Shown here piece by piece: positions 35,045 to 49,894 of a stretch of 52,698 bases of DNA (positions within the stretch are counted from its first letter, which is position 1; every line of letters starts with the position of its first letter). This DNA comes from a virus. The DNA lies in the IMG/VR virus record IMGVR_UViG_3300048800_000113, positions 1-52,698 of that record; one strand, written 5' to 3'. The notes under the pieces were generated by a model. That model was given only the letters and a program-made list of their open reading frames with translations. It made no database searches and was not told where the DNA came from. Position numbers and translations under genes: made by a program.

Positions 35045-35734
35045 TTACGGGGCTTGATTGACTGTGCAGGTATAGGTAGGAGCGGCTGGATCGAACGGTG
35101 TGGCACGCACGCAGGTGGTCACGCGACCATTGCCATCAGTGAACGTCCAGCTCACCGGCGGCTCACCGGCAACACCTGCTGGCCCAGTAGCGCCGGTCGC
35201 ACCAGTAGGACCAGCAACGGTGGAGTCAGCCCCTGCAGGCCCGACAGGACCTACCGCACCAGCAGCACCAGCCGCACCGTTCGCCCCTGCAGGCCCAGGA
35301 ACGATGGAGTTACCCCCCACTGATCCGCTAGGCCCTGCAACGGTCGAGTCCCGACCTGCTGGCCCCTGAGGGCCCGGAACGGACGAGTCTGCACCAGACA
35401 GTCCCGGAGGCCCTGGTGGCCCTTGCGCACCGACATCACCAGGAGGACCAGCCGCAGGGGCAGGACCACCCTTGGTGATCGTCGACGCTTTCGCACACAG
35501 CGTGACCATGTCTGACGCAGGCGCATGACCGGCACAGGCGGCGGCCACCTGCTGCGCCAGGCTGAACGTCTGAGCCTTCGAGGTGGCTGCATTGTTGGCC
35601 GATACGCGGGCAGACGAGAACAGCGCCCACGTGAGTGCGGCCACGAGCAGGATGCCCAGCAACAGCGTTGCTAGACGCCACCGATCGTTTCGATCGGAGC
35701 GATCCAGGTCAGTGTTATCTACTTCGGTCACCAT
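35045..35734 (-). CDS. Collagen-like membrane-anchored protein (229 aa)
   Basis: N-terminal hydrophobic helix (LATLLLGILLVAALTWALF, residues ~21-39), a short ectodomain with a Cys pair, then a run of Gly-X-Y triplets over roughly residues 90-200 (GPPGDVGAQGPPGPPG), then a small Cys-containing domain (VTTCVRATPF...YTCTV). Collagen-like triplets form a triple helix and give a fibre. It lies between membrane protein genes rather than in the tail-fibre block, so a membrane-tethered fibre or lysis-related role is inferred. Confidence 0.8.
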   Translation of the reverse strand: MVTEVDNTDLDRSDRNDRWRLATLLLGILLVAALTWALFSSARVSANNAATSKAQTFSLAQQVAAACAGHAPASDMVTLCAKASTITKGGPAPAAGPPGDVGAQGPPGPPGLSGADSSVPGPQGPAGRDSTVAGPSGSVGGNSIVPGPAGANGAAGAAGAVGPVGPAGADSTVAGPTGATGATGPAGVAGEPPVSWTFTDGNGRVTTCVRATPFDPAAPTYTCTVNQAP

Positions 35735-36585: not shown

Positions 36586-37001
36586 AGATGTGCAGGCAGG
36601 ATCTTGGCCGCGATTCCGGTGAAGGACAGATCATGCACCAGGTCATATCCGGGGTCGCTGGTAACGGTCGTTGCGATGAACGGGCTCTGGGTGTCGACCA
36701 CGAAGAACACCCACGCCCCTGTGTAGAAACCCTTGGCATCAGTCAGCCATCGGTAGACGCCGGCCGTGACCCGCGGGAAGCGAGTAGGCACCAGAGCGTC
36801 CCCATCGATAGACATGCCGTAGCTCACCAGCGGGCGCTCGATGAAGGTGGCACCGAAGTAGGCCGCCTCAGGCAGCTTGAACTCACCCCAGCCATGGGTG
36901 GTGAAGGATAGCTGAGCCGTAGCCAGCCGCGCAGAGTTCTCGCGGATCGCATCGAGCTGCCCACGACGCTGTTCGAGGGCCTGGAAGCCAGGATCAACCA
37001 T
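36576..37001 (-). CDS. Minor tail-associated protein (141 aa)
   Basis: Starts at ATG. A beta-rich protein (LSFTTHGWGEFKLPEAAYFG, then FIERPLVSYGMSIDGDAL) of the type found at the end of actinophage tail gene blocks. No catalytic motif is visible. Its position after the propeller-like gene supports a distal tail or adhesion role. An AACGGTCGTT site at 36663 lies inside. Confidence 0.65.
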   Translation of the reverse strand: MVDPGFQALEQRRGQLDAIRENSARLATAQLSFTTHGWGEFKLPEAAYFGATFIERPLVSYGMSIDGDALVPTRFPRVTAGVYRWLTDAKGFYTGAWVFFVVDTQSPFIATTVTSDPGYDLVHDLSFTGIAAKILPAHLFT

Positions 37002-37004
37002 GGC

Positions 37005-38279
37005 TCACACTCCGGTGAATCGAACGCGATTATCGAGCAGCTGGCCGCTGAGATTGGGCTTATTGCCAGGACCTTGAATCTTCCAGTTGCCAGGACCTTG
37101 AATCTTCCAGGCTATTACTGACGTGGTGTAGTCGACATCTGCGCCAACGATGCTGGTGACGGCGACAACCTCACCATTAGTAGGGTTTGCCACGACACAG
37201 GGGTAGTAGCCGCTACTCACCGCACCGGGGTCTGCAGGGATACCGAAATAAGGCAACGCAAGCGATTCCAGCACTGGAGGTGTAGCACTCTGATCCACCA
37301 CGCACCAGAACTCGCCGCTATAGACAGCCCCGTCGGTGACCTCGACGTACTGGTAGAGGATCTTTCCATCTGGTGAGCTGACTGGAATACTCGGGTTTGC
37401 CACAACCGATCCTGAGGTAATCAAGTCACCGACGTAGTCCCCGGTGAAGCTGTAATACTTCCCATTGTCGATGATCCCACCGAAGATGTATGGCGACCCC
37501 ACGGCAGTGGCCCACTGGTAGCCATATGGAGGATCTGGCGCACCTGGAAGTGTGGTCTGTCCGTCATAGGAACCACTGAGCCCATCGGCAGCCACAGTGA
37601 AGTTCCACAGCCCAGGACTGTTGGGTGTAGACGTAGTCACCGTTGCTGTGGTCATCACGAACTTAGTACTGTCGATGGGATCCATGAACAGCCCGACGAC
37701 CCCTTGGGTCATTACTATCCCAGTGGGGATCTCACACAGCATGACTCCGGTACTAGCCGTGAACACCTGTAGGACGGGTTTATAGGAACCGTCTCTACAG
37801 GTGATGACCACTCGATCGGCTGTGCGGTCATAGACGTAGTTGAACGATCCATTATAGTCGTACGCATACGTGGTGGTGGTGGTCGTAAACAGCACAGTTG
37901 GAGCAGCAGGGAATGGAGCGAGACTGTTGCAGTCAACAATCCAGCTCTGGTAGGTACGGGTGTTGAACCATCCGCTGCTGTAATAGCGATCCTGAGCCTG
38001 AGAAATCAGCAGGACCTTGTTACCTGCAATGGCTATCGCTCTTGGTATCGGAGACTGGTGCAGAGCAAAAGTGATATCTGCCGTGCCCAGCACGCTCAGG
38101 TCTGACGCCAGATGCCACATCCTGATGATCTGAGGAGTCCCGAAGGAGTACATCATCGAAGCGACGAAGTAGGTCCCATCATCCAAGAGGGCAACAGTGG
38201 GCTGCAGATCTGTGACAAACCCAGTCCCAGAGCCAAGGTTTGTCTCAATGACAGCATTGGTGATAACGCTCAAAGTCAC
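37005..38279 (-). CDS. Beta-propeller-like tail adhesin/minor tail protein (424 aa)
   Basis: Almost entirely beta strands with repeated Thr/Ser/Gly-rich blades (e.g. PTVLFTTTTTTYAYDYN; PDGKILYQYVEV) and aromatic residues, as in propeller-like receptor-binding or minor tail proteins. Ends with a tandem 8-residue duplication WKIQGPGN, encoded by a 24-base direct repeat. Lower GC than the neighbouring tail genes suggests exchange of the host-binding module. The start overlaps the upstream gene's stop (ATGA). Confidence 0.7.
   Translation of the reverse strand: MTLSVITNAVIETNLGSGTGFVTDLQPTVALLDDGTYFVASMMYSFGTPQIIRMWHLASDLSVLGTADITFALHQSPIPRAIAIAGNKVLLISQAQDRYYSSGWFNTRTYQSWIVDCNSLAPFPAAPTVLFTTTTTTYAYDYNGSFNYVYDRTADRVVITCRDGSYKPVLQVFTASTGVMLCEIPTGIVMTQGVVGLFMDPIDSTKFVMTTATVTTSTPNSPGLWNFTVAADGLSGSYDGQTTLPGAPDPPYGYQWATAVGSPYIFGGIIDNGKYYSFTGDYVGDLITSGSVVANPSIPVSSPDGKILYQYVEVTDGAVYSGEFWCVVDQSATPPVLESLALPYFGIPADPGAVSSGYYPCVVANPTNGEVVAVTSIVGADVDYTTSVIAWKIQGPGNWKIQGPGNKPNLSGQLLDNRVRFTGV
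37063..37110 (-). repeat. 24-bp tandem duplication in the propeller gene
   Basis: Two exact consecutive copies of a 24-base unit encode WKIQGPGN twice. A recent slippage or duplication event, in frame. It may vary between isolates. Confidence 0.85.
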
Positions 38280-41200
38280 GGGATCTTCCCAATCGAACGC
38301 AGGTACTGCCGAGCCTCGACGGAGAGGTTGGCCGGATTAAACGTCCAGGCCGAGAACGCGGTGTCACCCAGCCAGTGGGTGTCCAGGTCGTAGGTGTACT
38401 TGCCGGTCTCCAGGGACCAGTTCATCGAGATGCCGATGACGTACTGGAGGAACGCCTCCTCAGAGACGCGCTCGTAGACACGCACCTGGTCGTCGACCTG
38501 GATCGCAGGGTTGCCAGGGATGGTCACCTTGTCCGTGCGGTAGGTGAACAGCTGGCGCAAGGTGATGAGGTCAGCCATGATCTGGCACTCAGCGGTGGTG
38601 GCAAAGTGCTGGTCCGTGAAGCCACCGACCCGACGCAGCCCACTGGGATAAGGGTTGTGCCCGTTGGACATCGCCGCGATCTGACCCGAGACGTTGGCCA
38701 CGAAGACCTTCTCGCGGATACTGCGACCAGACATCTTGGCGCCCAGGCCCATCAGCGTCGTGGTCTCGTCGATGACAACGACCGTTGTTGTACGCCCGGA
38801 GTTGGGGCCGCCGTTGCCAATCCAGTTGCCGACGCTCCAGATGTTGGGCGAGCGGAAGACCGCACCGCCGCCTTCATCGATGAAAAAGAGGTAGCCCACG
38901 ATGTCTTTCACATAAGTGATGCAATTATGAACGACGAACTCGCCCTTACCGACCGTGAATGACGGATCGCCGTCAACGCTCAAATCCCACAGCACGACCT
39001 CACCGTGCTCATCACAGAGGGCAGTCCATCCAGGATCTCCCTGTCGGAGAACCTCAGTACGGTCCACCCTTGCGAGATGAGCCATGCGTCGCGCAGTTGA
39101 TCCTTCTCTCGCCTGACCCTCAGAGCATGGCCGGGATCGTCCACCTCGACAGCCACCTTCATCGCTGGATTGGCCAGATCCACTCGCATCGACACAATAC
39201 CCTCGACGGTTCCCAGAGGAGACATCCAAAACTCTGGATACCAGTCGTCGCCCAGTGCTCGCCAGAGCATGAACTGCGCCTCCGAGAGACCGCCCCAGAC
39301 TGGATTCACCGTCCGACTCTGACGACACTTCATCGAACATGCGACCTGCGCTACCACCATGGGATGAAACGACTCGCCACAACCCACGCAAATCCGATCC
39401 TCGAAAGTTCGAGCCGCCGCAAAGCACGGCCGGGAGCAGTACCTCCTCCCCAAGTCCCCTCTGAACTCCACCCCGCACTGAGGACAGACATAGCTCGGAT
39501 TGCGCGTCTTGTGTTTCGCCGCCAATGCCCGTCGACAAGGATCCGAACATGTCTTTCTCGGACCCTTGGGTGTCCGTGTTGCCATGAACTCCACTCCGCA
39601 CCATTCGCAGGCTTTCAGAATGTTGACGTACTTCGTCCCCGACCTTGAGCTCATCAGCCCTGACCCAACCTCTCACCGTCCAGAAGAGGTGGCCGGCGCT
39701 GGTCACGATCTGCTCGCCGTCGATCACGGTCGCAACAACGGACGTTGCCAGTTGGCTCTTGCGTCCTGTCACGCGACCGTAGCCACCACGGTTGGCAACC
39801 ACATCACCAAGCCGCAGATCCTCTATCGGTCGGTGACCGCCAGGAACTTTGACAAGAGTCCCGGCAAGCACACAATCCATCACCGGCTTCTTGTCGAAGA
39901 CACTCATCGGGATGGCCACCAGCGGAGCAGTGCCGGTCTCCTCGAAGTCCCCCCAGACCCTGCCCTTGACCAGTGCCCTGTCATCGCTAGGAGCCACCGT
40001 GGTGACCCTGGTGCCATTGCTGTACGTCCTGAAGGCGTGCGTGGCCTCACGCGGCCAGTAGAAGCCGGCATAGGCCAACACCAGCTTAGGAATGTCGGTG
40101 TAGTCATAGATCCGAGGAGGGGCCGTCAGCGGCTCGATGTGGGTGCCGCCGGGGGTCGTGGTGGTAACGGTCGTTCCCACCGCTCCGGAGACCTTGAACG
40201 ACCGCACACCAGCTCGGTAGCGGTAGGTGCCAATGCCGGAGTTGCACAGGTTGGTGAAGGTCAGCCGGATCTTGGTAGCGCCAGCGATGGCCTTGAAAGC
40301 AACCGCCTTGGTCTCCTCGTTGTTCACGTGGAAGCGGGTCACGAAGCGGATGTTGGATCCGTTCGGGGCGCTAACCGGATCGTTGGGGTTGTAGGGCACC
40401 GTCTGGTCGCCCTGCCACTTGCCACCGGCGAACACGCTGACGTAGCAGGTGTAGGGCCCGCCCCACACCCGGAACCGCACGCCCGAGACCTTCTGGGAGG
40501 TGAACTTGCCTTGGATGAACTCGAAGGAGTAGTCCGCGTCAGGACGGGCGTTACCAATCGAGAGCCAGTAGGTGGCGTCGCTGGTGTCGAAGGCGTCGGG
40601 CCCGGTGTGCCCGTAGACGCTGCCGCCGTTGCCGACGTAGGGCAGGTTCGAGCTGGTCTCGTAGTGAGGCTGGACCCAGCCCGCGGACATGCCACCGGTG
40701 GACGTCACGATGTCGGGGTTCTTGACGTCATGGGCCGTCTCGAACCACAGCGGGTAGGAGGCGAAGGGCACGATCGGTGGGAAGAGGATCTGGTCCAACA
40801 AGATGGAGCCGATGTCCCTGCAAGTCACAGTGATGATGCCGTCATGGGTGAAGTCAACGTCGTCGATGCGCCACGTGCCGCTCTGGTAGAGGTGCGTGTC
40901 CACCTCTGGAGCCACGCTCGCATCGAAGCCGTAGCCCTCGTAGGTATTCCCGGTGTAAAAGACGGACCCATTGCGTCGCGCAAGCCAATTCTTGTGCTTA
41001 ACCCTTGGACACCAGACATGCCCTTCGTAGGGTTCCTGCATCACCCCATTCGCACGTCGATCCCCCTGGTAAGCAGCATCGTGAGGTGAAGTCACAGTCT
41101 GGCGCAGCAACGTCACGGCGCGACAACTTCCATGCTTCTTCGTGTGAGTTGGCTGCCCAGCAAGAGCGCAAGCAAACTCAAATGCTTTTACGCGCACCTC

Positions 41201-42463
41201 ATTCTGAAGGAAGGTCTCCGAACCGGTTCCATCACCCAGAATGCTGACATCGATAAACAATCTCAATTGCGACTGCGTCAGCGAGGTCAAGAACTCAGGG
41301 CTAGGGATCTTGTCTGGACCACAGATGACCTTGCGCAGTTCCCTAGCGACTTCCTGGGTGAAGACAAAGCAGTTCTGCCCTGGCCTGGTGTGTCCATCTC
41401 GCCATTTATACACCTTCGTGTTAGCCCGCTTACCACTTGCCCACCGATACACGGAGATGTTACTCACGCCGAGCTTCTCGGCAACATCCCGAACGGCCAT
41501 CCCTCGTTGACGAAGCCTGATAGCTTCGTCAACGATCTCTTGCGGCACATATGGTCCACGCGGCAACGGGCCAGGAGTTCCGTACATGCGATACATGAGA
41601 TCACGAATGCGCTTGGAGTTTTGAGGGTTCACAATTTCAGACTGACTGATGGACCCACCGCTATCTAGACCACGCAAGCGATGGTCAGCAGTACCCTCTG
41701 TGTAATACCACGCTGCCAGTTCCACAAAATCATCCGAATAACTGGCGACGATATCCTTGGCCTGCGACACGGCCAGAGGAATGTATGAATGCCTGTCAAG
41801 CGTCTCCGTGGTCCGCCAGTCAAACTTGCCGTAGCGCTTAGTTAGCCATCGGTGGTTGCCAGTGGTTAGAGAATCGTGCGTGCGTGTCTTGAGCCTTGTA
41901 AGTTCACCAACAAACGGAGCGCGAAACACCTCAACAATGCTTTGCCATTCAGCGTTACCTGTTGCCGGGTTGATCCCGAGCGTCTCGTCCCCTTCGGCGA
42001 CCTGGTCCCACGCAAGCCATCCACGCTTGGTAAGGATCTCCGTTTCAGTATCAACACACCTGATGATGCGATCGGGGACAAGCCAGTCCTGCCAGCCGTT
42101 GGCGGTCCTACTCCAGCGCGAGGAGTGAGCGGTGACGCCCCTCAAGGGGCTGTAGAACCCCGGCTGATCCAGGTCATTGTTCTGCGGTGGCTCACCGATC
42201 GGCAAAGGCTGCGTGTTGTAGAGCGTCATGGTCATGTCGGCCACGCCGCTGTCCACGGTGCGCTTCCACTTGACGTCCTTGAGGTTCGGCAGCTCGAGCG
42301 GCATGTTCGCCTGGCCGAAGGGCACGCTCGAGTACTGCTGGTTGCCATAGGACATGACAATCAGGTCCAGCCGCTGGATCGTGGCACGGACCATGGGCCG
42401 ATTGGTGCCCACGTAGTCGCCAGAGGCCCAGGCGTTCTTGGTCGCCGTGGTCGTGGTCCTCAC
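38276..42463 (-). CDS. Minor tail protein carrying two inteins (1395-aa precursor)
   Basis: The GTG at 42463 overlaps the preceding stop (GTGA), so I prefer it to upstream starts. Extein parts: residues 1-135 (VKWKRTVDSGVADMTMTLYN), 507-863 (beta-rich, with Ig-like and carbohydrate-binding-like stretches: VYGHTGPDAFDTSDATYWL, ISVFDKKPVMD) and 1181-1395 (ITYVKDIVGYLFFIDEGGG). After removal of both inteins about 707 residues remain. The order (after the tape measure and early minor tail genes) and the beta-rich fold fit a tail-tip component. Confidence 0.85.
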   Translation of the reverse strand: MRTTTTATKNAWASGDYVGTNRPMVRATIQRLDLIVMSYGNQQYSSVPFGQANMPLELPNLKDVKWKRTVDSGVADMTMTLYNTQPLPIGEPPQNNDLDQPGFYSPLRGVTAHSSRWSRTANGWQDWLVPDRIIRCVDTETEILTKRGWLAWDQVAEGDETLGINPATGNAEWQSIVEVFRAPFVGELTRLKTRTHDSLTTGNHRWLTKRYGKFDWRTTETLDRHSYIPLAVSQAKDIVASYSDDFVELAAWYYTEGTADHRLRGLDSGGSISQSEIVNPQNSKRIRDLMYRMYGTPGPLPRGPYVPQEIVDEAIRLRQRGMAVRDVAEKLGVSNISVYRWASGKRANTKVYKWRDGHTRPGQNCFVFTQEVARELRKVICGPDKIPSPEFLTSLTQSQLRLFIDVSILGDGTGSETFLQNEVRVKAFEFACALAGQPTHTKKHGSCRAVTLLRQTVTSPHDAAYQGDRRANGVMQEPYEGHVWCPRVKHKNWLARRNGSVFYTGNTYEGYGFDASVAPEVDTHLYQSGTWRIDDVDFTHDGIITVTCRDIGSILLDQILFPPIVPFASYPLWFETAHDVKNPDIVTSTGGMSAGWVQPHYETSSNLPYVGNGGSVYGHTGPDAFDTSDATYWLSIGNARPDADYSFEFIQGKFTSQKVSGVRFRVWGGPYTCYVSVFAGGKWQGDQTVPYNPNDPVSAPNGSNIRFVTRFHVNNEETKAVAFKAIAGATKIRLTFTNLCNSGIGTYRYRAGVRSFKVSGAVGTTVTTTTPGGTHIEPLTAPPRIYDYTDIPKLVLAYAGFYWPREATHAFRTYSNGTRVTTVAPSDDRALVKGRVWGDFEETGTAPLVAIPMSVFDKKPVMDCVLAGTLVKVPGGHRPIEDLRLGDVVANRGGYGRVTGRKSQLATSVVATVIDGEQIVTSAGHLFWTVRGWVRADELKVGDEVRQHSESLRMVRSGVHGNTDTQGSEKDMFGSLSTGIGGETQDAQSELCLSSVRGGVQRGLGEEVLLPAVLCGGSNFRGSDLRGLWRVVSSHGGSAGRMFDEVSSESDGESSLGRSLGGAVHALASTGRRLVSRVLDVSSGNRRGYCVDASGSGQSSDEGGCRGGRSRPCSEGQAREGSTARRMAHLARVDRTEVLRQGDPGWTALCDEHGEVVLWDLSVDGDPSFTVGKGEFVVHNCITYVKDIVGYLFFIDEGGGAVFRSPNIWSVGNWIGNGGPNSGRTTTVVVIDETTTLMGLGAKMSGRSIREKVFVANVSGQIAAMSNGHNPYPSGLRRVGGFTDQHFATTAECQIMADLITLRQLFTYRTDKVTIPGNPAIQVDDQVRVYERVSEEAFLQYVIGISMNWSLETGKYTYDLDTHWLGDTAFSAWTFNPANLSVEARQYLRSIGKIP
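38924..39874 (-). mobile_element. Intein 2 in the minor tail protein (317 aa), hosting a nested gene
   Basis: Starts CVLAGTLVKVPGG with block B VTSAGHLFWTV, and ends FVVHN before Cys. Splicing joins KPVMD to CITYV. Blocks at both ends are sound, but the middle ~225 residues read as Ser/Gly/Arg low complexity (e.g. RGSDLRGLWRVVSSHGGSAG). That is the hallmark of DNA read in the wrong frame: the real gene in this stretch is a Vsr-like endonuclease in another frame of the same strand. The intein frame has nevertheless stayed open throughout. Confidence 0.85.
38980..39654 (-). CDS. Vsr-like (EDxHD) endonuclease nested in intein 2, other frame (224 aa)
   Basis: ATG at 39654, stop at 38980, wholly inside the intein 2 gene in a different frame of the same strand. 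Three CxxC...CxxxC zinc fingers come first (CEWCGVEF..CSDPC; CPQCGVEF..CSRPC; CVGCGESF..CSMKC). The C-terminal ~90 residues match the Vsr-like/DUF559 nuclease fold: VDLANPAMKVAVEVDD, LRDAWLISQGWTVLRFSD, EIL. Homing endonucleases of this Vsr-like type are known as free-standing genes between split-intein halves in metagenomic data. I find no clean ribosome binding site. Confidence 0.8.
   Translation of the reverse strand: MSSRSGTKYVNILKACEWCGVEFMATRTPKGPRKTCSDPCRRALAAKHKTRNPSYVCPQCGVEFRGDLGRRYCSRPCFAAARTFEDRICVGCGESFHPMVVAQVACSMKCRQSRTVNPVWGGLSEAQFMLWRALGDDWYPEFWMSPLGTVEGIVSMRVDLANPAMKVAVEVDDPGHALRVRREKDQLRDAWLISQGWTVLRFSDREILDGLPSVMSTVRSCCGI
40946..42058 (-). mobile_element. Intein 1 in the minor tail protein (371 aa)
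   Basis: Starts CVDTETEILTKRGW (block A, Cys1), followed by block B TTGNHRWL, and ends FYTGN before Thr-Tyr. The flanks give PDRIIR joined to TYEGYG. The penultimate residue is Gly instead of the usual His, seen in some working inteins. The middle (~200 residues) contains a helix-turn-helix (AVRDVAEKLGVSNISVYRWA) and a homing-endonuclease-sized region (FIDVSILGDGTGS, LAGLIDADG-like). Residues 136-506 of the precursor. Confidence 0.85.
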
Positions 42464-42843
42464 GAGAGCCTCCGGTAGTACAGCATGTCCACGGTGTAAT
42501 GGAACAGCCACGGGTTGTGGCCGCCCGACTTCTCAACGGGCGTTGGTGAGAAGCGCTGGCCGAGGACTTCATGCACGCGGCCGAAGTGGTCGGTCAGCTG
42601 CAGCCGGTTCGGCCGGTTCACCCAGGCCTCCAGCGCGTCGTACTCGTCCTGGGTGCGCAGCTTGCCGTTGAACGACCACGTGAAAGGTTTGTCAGGGGTC
42701 CGAGAGCTGCGGACCTTGCCGTCGATGGGTGACTTCGCCAGCGCCTTGGTCGTGTGCGGCTGAGCCATCGAGGCCATCGTCGCCGGGTTGTGCGAGAAGA
42801 CCAGCGTCTGGTTGGCCACCGGGTCGTGGAGCTGCCACCTCAT
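42460..42843 (-). CDS. Minor tail protein (127 aa)
   Basis: ATG at 42843. A beta-rich protein (QTLVFSHNPATM; TWSFNGKLRTQDEYDALEAW; PWLFHYTVDMLYYRRL) with a pattern close to the C-terminal half of the 43334 protein (FAIEHS...TLTFEGA...WTVEGACRT...FHDALETF...AFTYQLKAIIY), suggesting a duplication within the tail gene block. An AACGGGCGTT site at 42535 lies within. The stop overlaps the next start (GTGA). Confidence 0.75.
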   Translation of the reverse strand: MRWQLHDPVANQTLVFSHNPATMASMAQPHTTKALAKSPIDGKVRSSRTPDKPFTWSFNGKLRTQDEYDALEAWVNRPNRLQLTDHFGRVHEVLGQRFSPTPVEKSGGHNPWLFHYTVDMLYYRRLS

Positions 42844-43334
42844 AGCTGCACCGTGACCTTACGACGGGCCGCGTATCGGGCCGCTGCAGCTCTATTGCAG
42901 GCCCGACAGTACCGCTTACCGTGCTTATCAATGTAGGTGTTGGCCTCGTCGTACGCATGACGCTGTGGGCAGCGGGTTTTGTCCTGGTTGCCGTTATTGC
43001 TGCGGCCCTTTGCATTGCGATCCGCGGCATTCTCTGCGTCCGTCCCAAGGAAGAGGTGCCCCTCGGGGTAGCCTTCGGTCGGCTCAGTCTCACAGCAGGG
43101 TGGATTGTCGCAGTGATGGAGCACCTTCATGCCGGGCGGGATCGGACCGAAGGCCAACTCCCATGCAAGACGATGAGTCCGGACCTCCACCCCAAAGACA
43201 CTGATCCGGCCATAGCCATACCCGTGCCCGGTCCATTCCAGACATCCGTTCGGCATCCTCACCAACTTCGCAGCGAGACGCTCACGGATTGTCATGCCCA
43301 TGTACGTGCCGTCAGCCAAGCAGTACCTACCCAT
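42840..43334 (-). CDS. HNH homing endonuclease (164 aa)
   Basis: ATG at 43334, coupled to the upstream tail gene by TAATG. HNH core: CLEWTGHGYGYGRISVFG, THRLAWELAFGPIPPG, VLHHCDNPPCC, then GHLFLGTDAENAADR, and C-terminal CxxC elements. It separates two tail genes that look like relatives of one another. Confidence 0.88.
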   Translation of the reverse strand: MGRYCLADGTYMGMTIRERLAAKLVRMPNGCLEWTGHGYGYGRISVFGVEVRTHRLAWELAFGPIPPGMKVLHHCDNPPCCETEPTEGYPEGHLFLGTDAENAADRNAKGRSNNGNQDKTRCPQRHAYDEANTYIDKHGKRYCRACNRAAAARYAARRKVTVQL

Positions 43335-44161
43335 TAGAGTTGCACCGGCCCTGCGTAGATGATCGCCTTGAGCTGGTAGGTGAACGCCCAGTCGTTGTAG
43401 GCCTCGGGCAGCCGGGTCCAGGCGATGTTCTCCAGCGTCACCGTCCACGCACGAGAGAGATGGTCGATCATGTAGACCCGCCTGGGCATGGCCAGGAACG
43501 TCTCCAGCGCGTCGTGGAAGGCTTCCGTGCGGCAAGCGCCCTCCACCGTCCAGTCGACGCCCACAGGGGCTCCCTCGAACGTCAGAGGCTGCCCATCAGA
43601 CGCGGTGGAGTGCTCGATAGCGAACACCCTCCCCGCGTGCGGCGGAGACATCTTGCTCGGGCTGATCGGGAAGACGAAGCTCTCGCCTCCCGAGGTCGGA
43701 TCCTGCAAGACCCACCTGGTAACGCCCGTTTGCGTGACCGCTACCGGCGGGGAGTCTGCGGCCAGGCCCACCGGATAAGACACAGGCGGGTTGGTCACGA
43801 TGAACGAGACCGTGCCGGACAGCGTAGGCGTGGTCGCAGTGATTGTGTGCGAGCCCGCAGTCAGAGCCGGCAGTGGGATGGACATCCCGATGACCTGACC
43901 GTTGCTATCCAGCGTTGCTCCGAAGATCGTCACGCCACCGTCGATCGAGAAGTTGACAGGATCATTCGGTACCCCGTTGCTGACGGTGACCTTCAGCCAC
44001 GACGGAGTGGTGAGCACAGCAGCCAGGATTTCGACCTGCAGCGGGGCAACGCGAGCGCCACCGGCCCAGGTCACGGTGCCCGTGTCGGTGTACGTGGTCG
44101 TGGCCGGATGGACCCGCACGTAGTAGACGACACCCTCAGAGACCGGCGCCAGAACGGTCAT
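43334..44161 (-). CDS. Minor tail protein (275 aa)
   Basis: Starts at ATG with overlap to the upstream gene. N-terminal ~130 residues form an Ig-like repeat (VSNGVPNDPVNFSIDGGVT, then AGSHTITATTPTLSG); the C-terminal half resembles the 42460 protein. Such Ig-like units occur on tail surface proteins. Encodes an AACGCCCGTT site at 43721. Confidence 0.75.
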   Translation of the reverse strand: MTVLAPVSEGVVYYVRVHPATTTYTDTGTVTWAGGARVAPLQVEILAAVLTTPSWLKVTVSNGVPNDPVNFSIDGGVTIFGATLDSNGQVIGMSIPLPALTAGSHTITATTPTLSGTVSFIVTNPPVSYPVGLAADSPPVAVTQTGVTRWVLQDPTSGGESFVFPISPSKMSPPHAGRVFAIEHSTASDGQPLTFEGAPVGVDWTVEGACRTEAFHDALETFLAMPRRVYMIDHLSRAWTVTLENIAWTRLPEAYNDWAFTYQLKAIIYAGPVQL

Positions 44162-45373: not shown

Positions 45374-48300
45374 TCATACCTTCCTTGCGCTGGATCCGAC
45401 GGTCGACATCGCGCCCTGACCGAGGTACTGCGTCAGGATGGCCTTGACAGCCGGTATGTCGGTGCCATTGATGGTGATCTGCACGTTCGTGGTCAGTCCA
45501 CCGGCGCCGATGGCACGTGCCTCGTACGCCGTGGGCACCTTGATCGCACCCAGGTTGAACTGACCCTGCATCTGGTTGGCCAGCCCCTGGAGCGCCTGGT
45601 CGACCTGGTTGAGCTCGTCGACCTGCTGGCGGGTCTTGTTCTGCACGCTGCTGAGGTAGTTGTGCTGGCTGTTGAGGTAGGACAGATACGCCGAGAGGGA
45701 CTCGCGTTGCAGGTTGTAGTTGGTCTGCTGGTCGGAGAACTGCTGGTCAAAGGCACTCTTCTCCGCAGCGCTCTGGGCCTGCTTGAGCGCGAGCTTGTCC
45801 TTGTTGATCACGTCGGGCAGGGCCCCACGACGCTGGTCCATGGTCAGCTGGTCCGCAGCCTCACGAACCTTCTCTCGAGCCACGACCAGCGGGTTGGTCA
45901 GATCCTCCCCGAGCTGGCGAGCGTCGTTGGCCGCAGCCTGCACGGCCATCGAGTAGGCGTACTGCGCATCGTGCAGCGCTTTGAGCGCCGTCCAGTACTC
46001 CACCTGGTTCTTGGGCTCGCTCATCTTGTACTGAGCCACCCGAAGGTTCGTGATGGCCGCGCTCATCGGGTCGCCAGGGATCGCCTGAGCGGCCAGTCGT
46101 GCCTCCTCGATCTGCGCCGCCGTAGGGCCGGTCGCCGCCTTGTCCTTGGGCCAGGTGAAATCGCTGCCGCCAGGGACCGCAAGTGCGGCCGCCTTTGCCA
46201 TGCTGTTGGCGATCGCTACGTCCTTGGCGATCGCGTCCTGCTTGGCCTTCTCCGCAGGCGTGACGTTGGTGATGCTGCGGTTGGCGATGATCGCCTGCTG
46301 ACGCGGGTCGCTGCTCGCGTCGATGGCAGCATTGGCAGCCGCTCCTGCAGCCGCCTCCAGAGCAGCGAGCTGGTCCTGAAGGATCTTCCGCTCTGCCGCG
46401 ATGCCACGGTTGAAGGTGGTGATGAAGGCCTTGTCCACGCCCGCTAGCAGGCCAACAACCGAGTCGATGTCACCGGTCGAGGCGAACTCGCGCAGCGCCG
46501 CCGACACGGTGTTGCGGATCTGGCCCTGCGAAGCAGCGTTGTCAGACTGCATTGCGTGGATCGAGTCGACCTTGGACTTGACGTTGCCCAGCACGGCCTG
46601 GTGGTAGGCCTTGAGCGCCGTGTCATACATCGCATCGGCCGCGTCCTGCTGGTCCGTACCAGCAGCACGCCTGGAGGCCTCGGCGGTCAGGGAGGAGATC
46701 GCGCCGAGATCAGCCTCCCTCTGGATCGGGTCGCCCGTGCGACCGATCTGGGTCGTCAGCCGCTTGAGCTCGTCGGCGCCACCCTTGGACCCGGGCTGCG
46801 GAGTGAAGAAGTCAGCCAGTGAGGTATCCGGGATGTGCGCCAGCTCGTCCCGCAGCATCGCAATCGACTTGGACACCGAGGCGTGCGTGGTCGCGAGGTT
46901 GTTGATGCCTCTGTTGACATCGGTGTAGTCCCCAGCGAAGCTCTGCTGAGCCGGGGTCAAGGAGACAGCCGAGACCCCAGGGGCAAGGCTGGTGGTCGGC
47001 GCGGTGGTGTGGGTCAGCGAGAAGTTCTTTAGATCCTCGTAGGTCTGCTGAGCCGGAGTCAGGGAGGCGCGGTAGTCAGCGTCAGAGTTCGCCTGAAGCT
47101 GTGCCTGAAGATCAGCGCTCTGCTTGTAGAGACCGCTCTCCGGTCCCGTAACAGGCCCACGAGGGTTCCGAAGCCTCCGCTCGCCACCCGTACCACTGTT
47201 GGCGCCGTAGAGGACGGTGCCGCCGATCCCCTCCTGAGCAGCCTGCAGCGCGTTGATCGCCGTATCTGCCTCGGCAGCAGCTGATGCCTTCTCGTCAGCG
47301 GTCTTGGCATTCGCGTGCGCGGTGAACGCGGCAGCGGTCTGCGTCGCCGCATCCTGGCTCTTGCCGTACGACCCCCAGACCTCACCGAGAAGCGCGATAC
47401 CGGCAACAGCAGCCACGAACGGAGCCAGCGCGAGAGCCGCGCCACCTGCCGCGCCGGCCAGCGCCCCTAGCCTGCCTATGAGACTGACCGAAGCCACGTC
47501 AGCAGCGCCAGCGGCAGCTCCCTGCGCTATCGCGTTCTCGCCAGCCGCAACAGTGTTGACCTCGATGGCAGCCGTGTCGACGCCGGTCGCACTAGCGTCC
47601 AGACCCAAAGCCGCGACCCGGGCCGCGGTCGCGTCAGCAGAAACAACCTCAGCCGCCCCGGCACCGATACCGCCAACCTTGTCCAGCATGTTCGTCATGC
47701 CCACGAGCCCGAAGCTGCCGCCGAAGATCCTGCCAGCTACCGAGGCCAGAGCCAGCACCTCAAGGAACTGCTTGACGTACCCCGGCAGGACGGCGAACCC
47801 ACTCACGAGCGCGTCGACGCCACGCAGCAGCGGGTCGACCAGACCTAGTGCATCACCGAAGACACTCCCCAGACCCGAGGTGCCCATGTCCTTGGACAGA
47901 GCCGACCAGTCGGCGACAATCTGCTCCAGCCTGCCAGCGAAGGTACCCAGTCGGGCCTGAGCCTGGTCGAATGCCACGCCTACGGAGTTGGCACCCTCAG
48001 CAGCAATCGAGGTCTGGGCTGGCAGGTCGGTGATCGCGGCCACCACGGCAGCACCGGCACGACCACCACCCAGAGTCGAGATGACCTTGGCCCGCTGAGT
48101 CTCTGAGAGATCCTGGAACTTGGCACCGAGCTGGACCAGCTCGTCACGCAGGCTCTGATTCTGATTGATCTGGAACTCAGCGAAGACGTCGTTGAAGGTG
48201 GCCGAGCCCTGACGACCTAGGAACCGCTTCAGGTCGCCAGCAGCCTGCTCGGAGGTGTTGCCGGTGTACTGCATGACCGAGCCGGTCAGCGCCAGCCCCT

Positions 48301-49894
48301 GCTCAGCGGTGAAGCCAGACTGCTTCAGAAGGTCGGCGATCTGCGCCGTACCACCCAGCAGCGACCCACCAAGCTGCTGCCCGTAGTGCTGAGCGATGAC
48401 GGTAGCTGCGTCGTAGAGCTTGCTGGCGCCCATCGCGTCGCGCTCGTAGTTCTGAGCGATGGCGCCGAGCTCGCCGAGGGTCTTGTCGTTGGCAATCGCT
48501 CGCGCTGCCGGGTCACCGAAGGCTCCGGTGGACTTGGCGCCCTCGAGCAGGTTGACGGTCGAGCCCAGTTGTGCGCCGACAGCGCCGGCCACCCCGGAGG
48601 TGTCTCGGAAGAACCGGGTGTACTTGGTCGCCGCATCAACCGCAATGGCTGGAGCAGTGGCGAGGTTCTGGCCGATCGTAGAGTAGGTCTCGGCCAGACC
48701 AACCGCCTGCTCGTGGTTCCCACCCAGGGCGATGGTGAGCTGGTTGACCGCCAGCGAGTACTCCTCGGTGGCGACCTTGACCTCACGCAGAAGCCGGGAG
48801 CCCTCCTGGAAGGCCATGAAGAAGCCGTAGTACTTCAGCATCGTCATGCCGCTCATGCCGCCGCCGAACATGCCGCCGCCGCCACCGGAGGCAGACACGG
48901 CCTGCTCCTCCATGGCAGCCGTCAGGCGCTCCTCTACCGCGAGCGTCCGGATGCGGGCCTGCGCGAGCGCAACCTCGGTGACAGTGCCTTCCTTGGCAGC
49001 CAGGAGAGTCTGCTCTTTGGCCACCGCGATCGAGGCGTCCAACTGCAACTGCTGGACCTTGGCCGGCGCCATCTGGTCGATCCCAGACAAGACCGGGGCA
49101 ACCATGGGAGCAGCGGCCGCCTTCTCGGCCGCCAGTGCCTGACTCTCCTCCGCCGCAACCACGCGACGATCAGCAGCGATGAGGTTCGAGATGCCAGACG
49201 ACAGCGCAGCGGTCCGCTGCTCGACGGTCGCGTACTCCTTGTCGATAGCCATCGTCAGCCTCGACTGAGCGGCGACCAGTTTCGCCTGGGCCTCCTCCAA
49301 CGGCGTACCCTCGCCAACGCCCGTTGTCGCGGAGATCTGCGCCTTTACTCCCGCGAGCCCCTCCGCGCCGGAAAGTCCACCAGAGACGGCCCCAATAGGC
49401 GTGACCACTCCCCCGGGGCCCATCTGCAAACCCAGAGCTGCCAACTGCCGATTACCTGCGCCGACTACCGGCGCAGCAGCCGCCATCCCCGACGCCTCAG
49501 CCTGGACCTTCGCCGTAGAAACGGCCGTTAGCTGAGCCTCCTGCTGGACGATCATCAGCTGCCTGAGCTTGTTGATCAGCAGGTCGGTGTCCTCGATGCC
49601 GCTACGCATCGCAGCGTGCGTGCCCTCGTTCTGTATGGGCTCGGCGCTGTATGCCCGACCCGCAGTCCTCAGGTCAGCCAGAGCAACCTTCAGCTGCTCC
49701 AGCACGCCCATGGTGGCGGTGGCGCCAGCCTCGACGCCGCCGAAGACCTGCTCGCCCAGCTGTACGCCGGGCATGTTGGCAAGCTCGGCCATCCTGGCCT
49801 GCAACGCCTGAATGATCTCGCCCAGTTGGGCGGCCGCACCTTCGTCCTGGACGCGGATTGAGATGAGCCCGTCAAACAGCGGGTCAACGGCCAC
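45374..49894 (-). CDS. Tail tape measure protein (1506 aa)
   Basis: GTG start at 49894. The largest gene in the window: long Ala/Gln/Leu-rich helical and coiled-coil stretches, with a hydrophobic patch near residues 810-850 (ALAPFVAAVAGIALLG). It follows the chaperone genes directly. Tape measures set tail length; at about 1.5 angstrom per residue 1,506 residues predict a tail near 225 nm (inference). It contains two dispersed palindromes near its 5' end (49316, 49520) and none further on. Confidence 0.93.
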   Translation of the reverse strand: MAVDPLFDGLISIRVQDEGAAAQLGEIIQALQARMAELANMPGVQLGEQVFGGVEAGATATMGVLEQLKVALADLRTAGRAYSAEPIQNEGTHAAMRSGIEDTDLLINKLRQLMIVQQEAQLTAVSTAKVQAEASGMAAAAPVVGAGNRQLAALGLQMGPGGVVTPIGAVSGGLSGAEGLAGVKAQISATTGVGEGTPLEEAQAKLVAAQSRLTMAIDKEYATVEQRTAALSSGISNLIAADRRVVAAEESQALAAEKAAAAPMVAPVLSGIDQMAPAKVQQLQLDASIAVAKEQTLLAAKEGTVTEVALAQARIRTLAVEERLTAAMEEQAVSASGGGGGMFGGGMSGMTMLKYYGFFMAFQEGSRLLREVKVATEEYSLAVNQLTIALGGNHEQAVGLAETYSTIGQNLATAPAIAVDAATKYTRFFRDTSGVAGAVGAQLGSTVNLLEGAKSTGAFGDPAARAIANDKTLGELGAIAQNYERDAMGASKLYDAATVIAQHYGQQLGGSLLGGTAQIADLLKQSGFTAEQGLALTGSVMQYTGNTSEQAAGDLKRFLGRQGSATFNDVFAEFQINQNQSLRDELVQLGAKFQDLSETQRAKVISTLGGGRAGAAVVAAITDLPAQTSIAAEGANSVGVAFDQAQARLGTFAGRLEQIVADWSALSKDMGTSGLGSVFGDALGLVDPLLRGVDALVSGFAVLPGYVKQFLEVLALASVAGRIFGGSFGLVGMTNMLDKVGGIGAGAAEVVSADATAARVAALGLDASATGVDTAAIEVNTVAAGENAIAQGAAAGAADVASVSLIGRLGALAGAAGGAALALAPFVAAVAGIALLGEVWGSYGKSQDAATQTAAAFTAHANAKTADEKASAAAEADTAINALQAAQEGIGGTVLYGANSGTGGERRLRNPRGPVTGPESGLYKQSADLQAQLQANSDADYRASLTPAQQTYEDLKNFSLTHTTAPTTSLAPGVSAVSLTPAQQSFAGDYTDVNRGINNLATTHASVSKSIAMLRDELAHIPDTSLADFFTPQPGSKGGADELKRLTTQIGRTGDPIQREADLGAISSLTAEASRRAAGTDQQDAADAMYDTALKAYHQAVLGNVKSKVDSIHAMQSDNAASQGQIRNTVSAALREFASTGDIDSVVGLLAGVDKAFITTFNRGIAAERKILQDQLAALEAAAGAAANAAIDASSDPRQQAIIANRSITNVTPAEKAKQDAIAKDVAIANSMAKAAALAVPGGSDFTWPKDKAATGPTAAQIEEARLAAQAIPGDPMSAAITNLRVAQYKMSEPKNQVEYWTALKALHDAQYAYSMAVQAAANDARQLGEDLTNPLVVAREKVREAADQLTMDQRRGALPDVINKDKLALKQAQSAAEKSAFDQQFSDQQTNYNLQRESLSAYLSYLNSQHNYLSSVQNKTRQQVDELNQVDQALQGLANQMQGQFNLGAIKVPTAYEARAIGAGGLTTNVQITINGTDIPAVKAILTQYLGQGAMSTVGSSARKV

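Follow-up and report, generated by a model that had tools for sequence, protein, structure and literature searches.

A putative Vsr-type nuclease gene overprinted in the +1 frame on a contiguous phage intein, with stop avoidance in the splicing frame

In the fractured genes of Dassa et al. 2009, phage inteins at conserved enzyme sites reportedly carry a homing-endonuclease gene, often Vsr-like, at the canonical insertion point. The intein is said to be split by stops, and the nuclease to be a separate gene between the halves. The fractured-gene organisation has also been described for AceL NrdHF (PMC7891396). A different arrangement is the ShiLan-type element, in which an HNH homing endonuclease lies out of frame in the insertion and the host frame is left open (PMC11855218). 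I-Bth0305I (PDB 3r3p), a member of the EDxHD family, has been described among group I intron endonucleases (PMC3943268).

The window is the whole stretch of viral DNA that we analysed, at its full length of 52,698 nt. The host ORF (42511..38276, minus strand) runs without a stop over its 1411 aa and leaves an extein of 723 aa once both inteins are subtracted. With a probable tape-measure ORF upstream of it, it probably encodes a minor tail protein, a structural protein of the tail module. In the following list, as in the text, a slash within a sequence marks a splice junction.

38276..42511, minus strand: host gene, an ORF for a 1411-aa precursor made of a 723-aa extein and two inteins
45374-49894: neighbouring probable tape-measure ORF, based on a tail tape-measure match
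40946..42058, minus strand: intein 1 of the same host gene, 371 aa, with HTH and LAGLIDADG-like motifs in frame; the internal contrast to intein 2
38924..39874, minus strand: intein 2, 317 aa, Cys1 ... TxxH ... His-Asn/Cys, based on its boundaries, the AlphaFold Hint fold and Foldseek
39611..39874, minus strand: N-terminal splicing half, intein 2 residues 1-88, with pLDDT over 90 for residues 1-80
38924..39091, minus strand: C-terminal splicing half, intein 2 residues 262-317, with high pLDDT and predicted strands at 265-277, 294-300, 305-308 and 313-316
39092..39610, minus strand: overprinted middle, intein 2 residues 89-261, predicted disordered, zero stops
38980..39654, minus strand: nested ORF of 224 aa for the putative homing endonuclease, +1 with respect to the frame of intein 2
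39652..39654, minus strand: nested ATG, the sole ATG, GTG or TTG from the upstream in-frame stop (TGA 39673-39675) to the first Cys pair
39325..39609, minus strand: zinc-finger-like region with C16/C19, C36/C40, C57/C60, C73/C77 and a third pair, based on sequence and alignment
38980..39291, minus strand: predicted Vsr/DUF559/EDxHD-type nuclease domain, residues 122-224, based on Pfam DUF559, VIA-align and conserved residues

Four intein-less homologues of the host extein were found (L011, L012, L013 and L014), and the second insertion site is uninterrupted in each of them. L012 shares 88% protein identity with the host extein. At the site of intein 2 its DNA reads ...GCTGAC/GGAATC... compared to ...ATGGAT/TGC... 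in the window, and residue +1 is Gly in L012 and Cys in the window. Intein 1 looks unrelated to intein 2 of the same gene; its HTH is an in-frame HTH_23, and its LAGLIDADG-like motifs were recognised by eye only. Two further ORFs of the region, both on the minus strand, were noted: an HNH_3 endonuclease ORF, another probable homing endonuclease, just upstream of the tail gene (42840-43535, E=4e-11), and, further downstream among the tail genes, an ORF whose Gly-Pro-Ala/Gly-x-y repeats resemble collagen (35045-35734). We rejected a reading as self-splicing introns, as Rfam gave no match across 37000-43600, even at E 0.1.

The junctions of intein 2 read PVMD/CVLAGTLVKV...FVVHN/CITY, and the residues of a class 1 intein are present: C1, T59-x-x-H62 (block B) and H316-N317/C. 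The insertion is in frame and is absent at the exact site in L011-L014. In an AlphaFold model run with 52 relatives most of residues 1-80 and 271-317 have a pLDDT over 90, so that both halves are predicted to adopt the Hint fold with high confidence. A Foldseek search with this model matched BIL4 (2lwy, E=2e-6), gp41-1 (6qaz, E=1e-5) and the MtuRecA intein; the halves thus resemble mini-inteins such as the first two. The Pfam scores of the window protein stay below the curated cut-offs (Intein_splicing 28.4 vs 35.8, Hint_2 27.8 vs 28.4), which its relatives pass. Intein 2 has the features of a class 1 intein with all splice blocks kept, the original prediction having noted good splice blocks at both ends, and splicing is predicted. 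The middle of the intein behaves differently from the halves: residues 90-246 have a pLDDT under 50 and are modelled entirely as coil. The earlier view that this middle is mere read-through is borne out by the low pLDDT and the lack of secondary structure, but not for the 3' part. Both frames are predicted to encode structured segments there over about 110 nt, with the last 37 codons of the nuclease overlapping predicted intein strands, and in the relative L034 the nuclease segment GLGWKVFRFSNSQIL overlies the intein segment RLRFNWTRLESVSLL. According to these models the middle of the intein frame is therefore not purely unconstrained filler. Selection for a polar peptide in the intein frame was unsupported, as the observed peptides were slightly less polar than codon-shuffled ones.

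The nested ORF (39654..38980) lies entirely within intein 2 (39874..38924) in the +1 frame, and the coordinates agree exactly with the claim that a nuclease is nested out of frame in a contiguous intein. It starts at the codons for intein residues 73-74, just past block B, and ends with a TGA (38980-38982) inside the last splicing block, within VLWDLSVDG. Residues 14-114 match PHROG 1271, annotated as 'HNH endonuclease' (E=1e-11), and DUF559 was found with E=3.6e-10 and 40.1 bits against a Pfam cut-off of 20.6. The AlphaFold model, run with 73 relatives, has a mean pLDDT of 82.8. With VIA-align, residues 111-224 of the model aligned to the DUF559 structure 3hrl (Z 13.2, 1.4 A, 85 residues), to I-Bth0305I 3r3p (Z 11.4, 2.4 A, 89 residues) and to Vsr 1cw0 (Z 10.5, 2.3 A, 101 residues), all three ranking above most other VIA-align matches. 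The profile match of the nuclease to 3r3p is weak (E=0.005). Across the 73 relatives D159, D172, H176 and D185 are invariant and E170 is conserved in over 90%, which describes conservation within the family. Together with the Cys pairs, the predicted Vsr-type fold identifies the nested ORF as a candidate zinc-finger and Vsr/EDxHD-type nuclease, much as had been anticipated. The GC content by codon position over the shared stretch also peaks at position 3 of the nested frame and not of the intein frame. In the nuclease tree the window protein sits on a very long branch with no close relatives and has at most 35% identity to the family. A single-sequence scan with the window nuclease recovered six distant loci only and no close relatives, and an intein-only scan with intein 2 recovered zero relatives.

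In the +1 register an intein-frame stop requires T as the last base of a nuclease codon with AA, AG or GA following it; we refer to these positions as risk sites. We permuted the synonymous codons of the nested ORF 100,000 times, keeping the protein and the codon set fixed. The shuffled sequences carried 7.4 intein-frame stops on average and reached zero in 5 of the 100,000 cases, whereas the window has none. At the risk sites of the window all 18 pyrimidine-ending codons end in C, compared to 54% T elsewhere (P=8.7e-7). The intein frame, which the original prediction had described as open over the full 675 bases, is therefore not open by chance of high GC. NNT and NNC are always synonymous, hence the +1 register can encode any protein sequence without putting a stop into the host frame, and it is this permissiveness that makes dual coding possible. 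In the other register a TGA in the host frame is unavoidable wherever K, N, T, I or M comes after a Met, and such pairs occur at least once in each of 73 nucleases (3.5 on average). The permissive register suggests a coding argument for the choice of +1, which is not proof of its cause.

Among the loci found by the first scan with the window protein was L002. On this AT-rich virus contig the intein of a SNF2-type helicase contains a homologous nuclease in the +1 register. Searches based on L002 led to the isolated Vibrio phages CP-T1, Rostov M3, 1.194.O, K391, 1.088.O, 159E43-1b and 104E43.1 and also to MR14 (Pseudomonas) and phi673 (Corynebacterium). All isolate-phage cases lie within helicase CDSs, and the nested gene was unannotated in 8/8 records examined. 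For MR14, phi673 and 159E43 an ordinary fusion to the helicase was considered and proved wrong, as the nuclease is +1 out of frame inside the intein in each. A profile scan yielded 87 loci, 80 from viruses and 7 from genomes. The nuclease is in the +1 register inside one unbroken intein-containing ORF in 79 of them, at a GC content of 28-68%. Across the nuclease these 79 loci have zero stops in the intein frame and 3-33 in the third frame, where the numbers match the shuffled expectation. The non-redundant nested set comprises 67 cases, the window and 66 other phage or prophage loci. Their risk sites hold 0 T and 990 C, a zero that is partly by construction because the nested class is defined by the absence of stops, and their other sites hold 2621 T and 1486 C. 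Before all other dinucleotides, AC, AT, GC, GG and GT among them, T makes up 54-72%, so the pattern does not come from TA or TG being avoided in general. The evidence lies in the gap from 0 to 13-37 stops, with no locus in between, and in the control group described below.

The splice residues are retained in essentially all nested cases. In most cases the intein is inserted at the DExH/Walker B box, either of helicases (DE/C...HN/CHH) or of clamp-loader ATPases, and the tail gene of the window is the exception. Two loci had additional features: the SNF2 helicase ORF of L093 (1780-5745) has a LAGLIDADG_3 match upstream plus an overprinted Vsr-type intein, and one 1894-aa ORF of L096 (70-5751) combines a LigD 3'-phosphoesterase domain with a SNF2 helicase carrying an overprinted intein. 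The comparison of both frames across relatives that had been suggested as a check was made on members of the family, as the scans had found no close relatives for the window's own lineage; in 12/12 pairs the identity of the nuclease over the shared DNA was at least as high as that of the intein-frame peptide (e.g. 0.98 vs 0.89). Most of the differences within the pairs over this DNA are at third positions of the nuclease. The identities indicate that the shared DNA is held mainly for the nuclease, with the intein adding the requirement of no stops.

Eight loci (six non-redundant) depart from stop avoidance. L066, L092/L095 and L099/L100 are split inteins with 13-29 intein-frame stops, in which an IntN ORF is followed by the nuclease in the same +1 register and then by an IntC ORF in the frame of IntN. 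At L121 (4001-4579) and L082 (4001-4600) a free-standing nuclease lies directly beside an intein-less helicase, its presumed target gene, and L126 (4001-4906) is a free-standing homologue with a C-terminal extension on a Pontibacter contig, near a ParA-like ORF. The risk sites of the six non-redundant controls hold 152 T and 43 C, i.e. 78% T, like their other sites. Intein-frame stops in relatives had been named in advance as what would speak against overprinting; as they are confined to these split or free-standing loci (L066, L092/L095, L099/L100, L082, L121 and L126), they support the overprint reading. The split cases group together in the nuclease tree, as a single clade (100/100) among the nested ones, and the free-standing cases appear in three places. 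The tree is unrooted and the direction of change has to be inferred from it; the simplest reading is that relaxed stop avoidance turned a contiguous intein into a fractured gene.

The nuclease could be translated from an internal start or as a fusion. An ATG or GTG precedes the first Cys pair in the nuclease frame in 66/66 testable nested cases. Shine-Dalgarno matches of at least 5 nt were found in 25 of the 66 in the nuclease frame, compared to 0 and 0 in the other frames, and matches of at least 4 nt in 36, compared to 0 and 5. At loci with a stop close upstream, 20/21 have an ATG in the short gap, where 2.5 would be expected. As start codons, Shine-Dalgarno matches and short-gap ATGs all concentrate in the nuclease frame, internal initiation is well supported by sequence for the family. 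It is plausible for the window copy, where the nested ATG lies in a seven-codon gap with a weak AGGG 4 nt upstream. A programmed +1 frameshift that yields a fusion of N-extein, N-intein and nuclease without an internal start would account for the constant register, as a fixed slip needs one, and for the weak Shine-Dalgarno of the window. We regard it as improbable: in many loci a nuclease-frame stop lies a few codons upstream of the nuclease domain and yet is followed by the ATG excess just described, the Shine-Dalgarno enrichment is limited to the nuclease frame (e.g. AAGGAGGT-6-ATG in L125), and no common slippery sequence was noticed on inspection by eye.

The other alternatives concern the fate and origin of the two frames. 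That the intein frame stayed open by chance in GC-rich DNA, with the nuclease inserted into a dead intein and only the nested ORF functional, would fit the disordered middle, its faster evolution at the protein level compared to the nuclease frame and the scarcity of stops in high-GC DNA. This explanation is hardly tenable, since zero stops have a probability of about 1e-6 to 5e-5 for the window alone, the pattern holds in genomes of 28-36% GC where 13 or more stops are expected, it vanishes exactly where the intein is not contiguous, and the splice residues are kept. The window intein might instead be a decaying remnant that still splices while its nuclease is inactive or unexpressed. The nuclease has a long branch and an unusual residue composition, the linker motif of the helicase clade (TNRKYASxRMKxxNPM) is missing and the Shine-Dalgarno is weak, which all point that way; we consider decay unlikely in view of the full-length ORF, the intact Cys pairs, the presence of D159, E170, D172, H176 and D185, the coding-type GC pattern in the nested frame and the confident predicted fold. 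Somewhat less doubtful is an origin of the window arrangement by convergence, independent of the helicase and clamp-loader family. The host gene, the insertion site and the zinc-finger arrangement all differ and the nuclease is divergent, but the nuclease domain, the zinc-finger style, the canonical Hint insertion point and the +1 register are all shared. The register is not decisive here because +1 is the permissive one. The weak Shine-Dalgarno and the long branch taken together could mean that the window copy is decaying or of separate origin.

Several comparisons bear on mobility. The shared helicase DNA of CP-T1 and vB_VchM-138 is 96.4% identical, yet the intein is present in CP-T1 and the DEAHH site of vB_VchM-138 is empty. 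Between 1.194.O and 1.088.O (L034/L036) the identity is 94-98% for the intein DNA and 74-82% for the exteins, which points to recent transfer. The lower divergence of the intein compared to the exteins, together with the near-identical intein-less phage, suggests mobility. The same helicase site is empty in the related Vibrio phage 234P10, and the Vibrio phages K389, K459 and PS65A.1 (L127, L128 and L129) have a 150-aa mini-intein of another lineage at this DE/CHH site, where sister phages carry the overprinted intein or none. At the window's own site only empty copies and no intein-positive relative were found, and homing there is inferred from these empty sites only.

Taken together, the window very probably contains a mobile element that encodes two proteins in the same DNA, a cis-splicing intein with an internally started +1 nuclease that homes. 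A ribosome translating the tail gene would read straight through the intein frame, and the two Hint halves would fold round a long disordered loop and splice out. Other ribosomes would start at the internal ATG after block B and produce a separate zinc-finger and Vsr-like (EDxHD-type) nuclease, which would cut intein-less copies of the site, with repair copying the intein in. Selection for read-through would have removed every stop-making T and left the nuclease unchanged; once relaxed, the intein would break into halves with the nuclease between them, i.e. a fractured gene. We think it somewhat better than an even chance that the family represents a widespread class of dual-coded phage inteins with codons tuned for read-through and the missing stage before split-intein fractured genes.

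If so, a mobile intein can have its nuclease encoded not as an in-frame domain but as a second gene laid over the splicing gene, which would uncouple nuclease dose from splicing and from the stoichiometry of the host protein. The contiguous, split and free-standing forms, as natural controls, make this a very clear example of overprinting kept up by selection, and a simple argument from coding accounts for +1 being the usable register. The family further points to a concrete way in which natural split inteins, tools in wide use, could arise.

The overprinting of a nuclease on a contiguous intein appears to be conserved, recurrent and undescribed. In the open literature on out-of-frame or overprinted intein endonucleases the ShiLan element and one genome report, for phages carrying it, were all that we found, a coverage that does not include Dassa 2009. 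Like the window, the fractured genes reportedly have a homing-endonuclease gene, often a Vsr-like one, at the canonical insertion point, and L066, L092 and L099 represent their split form within the same nuclease family. However, their halves are separated by stops; the window has an uninterrupted intein ORF with the nuclease written over it in the +1 frame. The ShiLan type shares the hidden out-of-frame endonuclease and the open host frame. It differs in its HNH nuclease, which lies in the third frame relative to the host, and in having no detectable self-splicing domain, compared to a Vsr/EDxHD-type nuclease, a Hint domain and all splice blocks in the window. I-Bth0305I belongs to a group I intron setting, whereas the window nuclease is a gene in an intein and its DNA-binding part is zinc-finger-like. 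Canonical inteins with LAGLIDADG or HNH endonucleases have the Hint fold and the same endonuclease insertion point as the window (compare PMC6801210), but their endonuclease is in frame and is excised with the intein, whereas that of the window would be a separate protein read from another frame.
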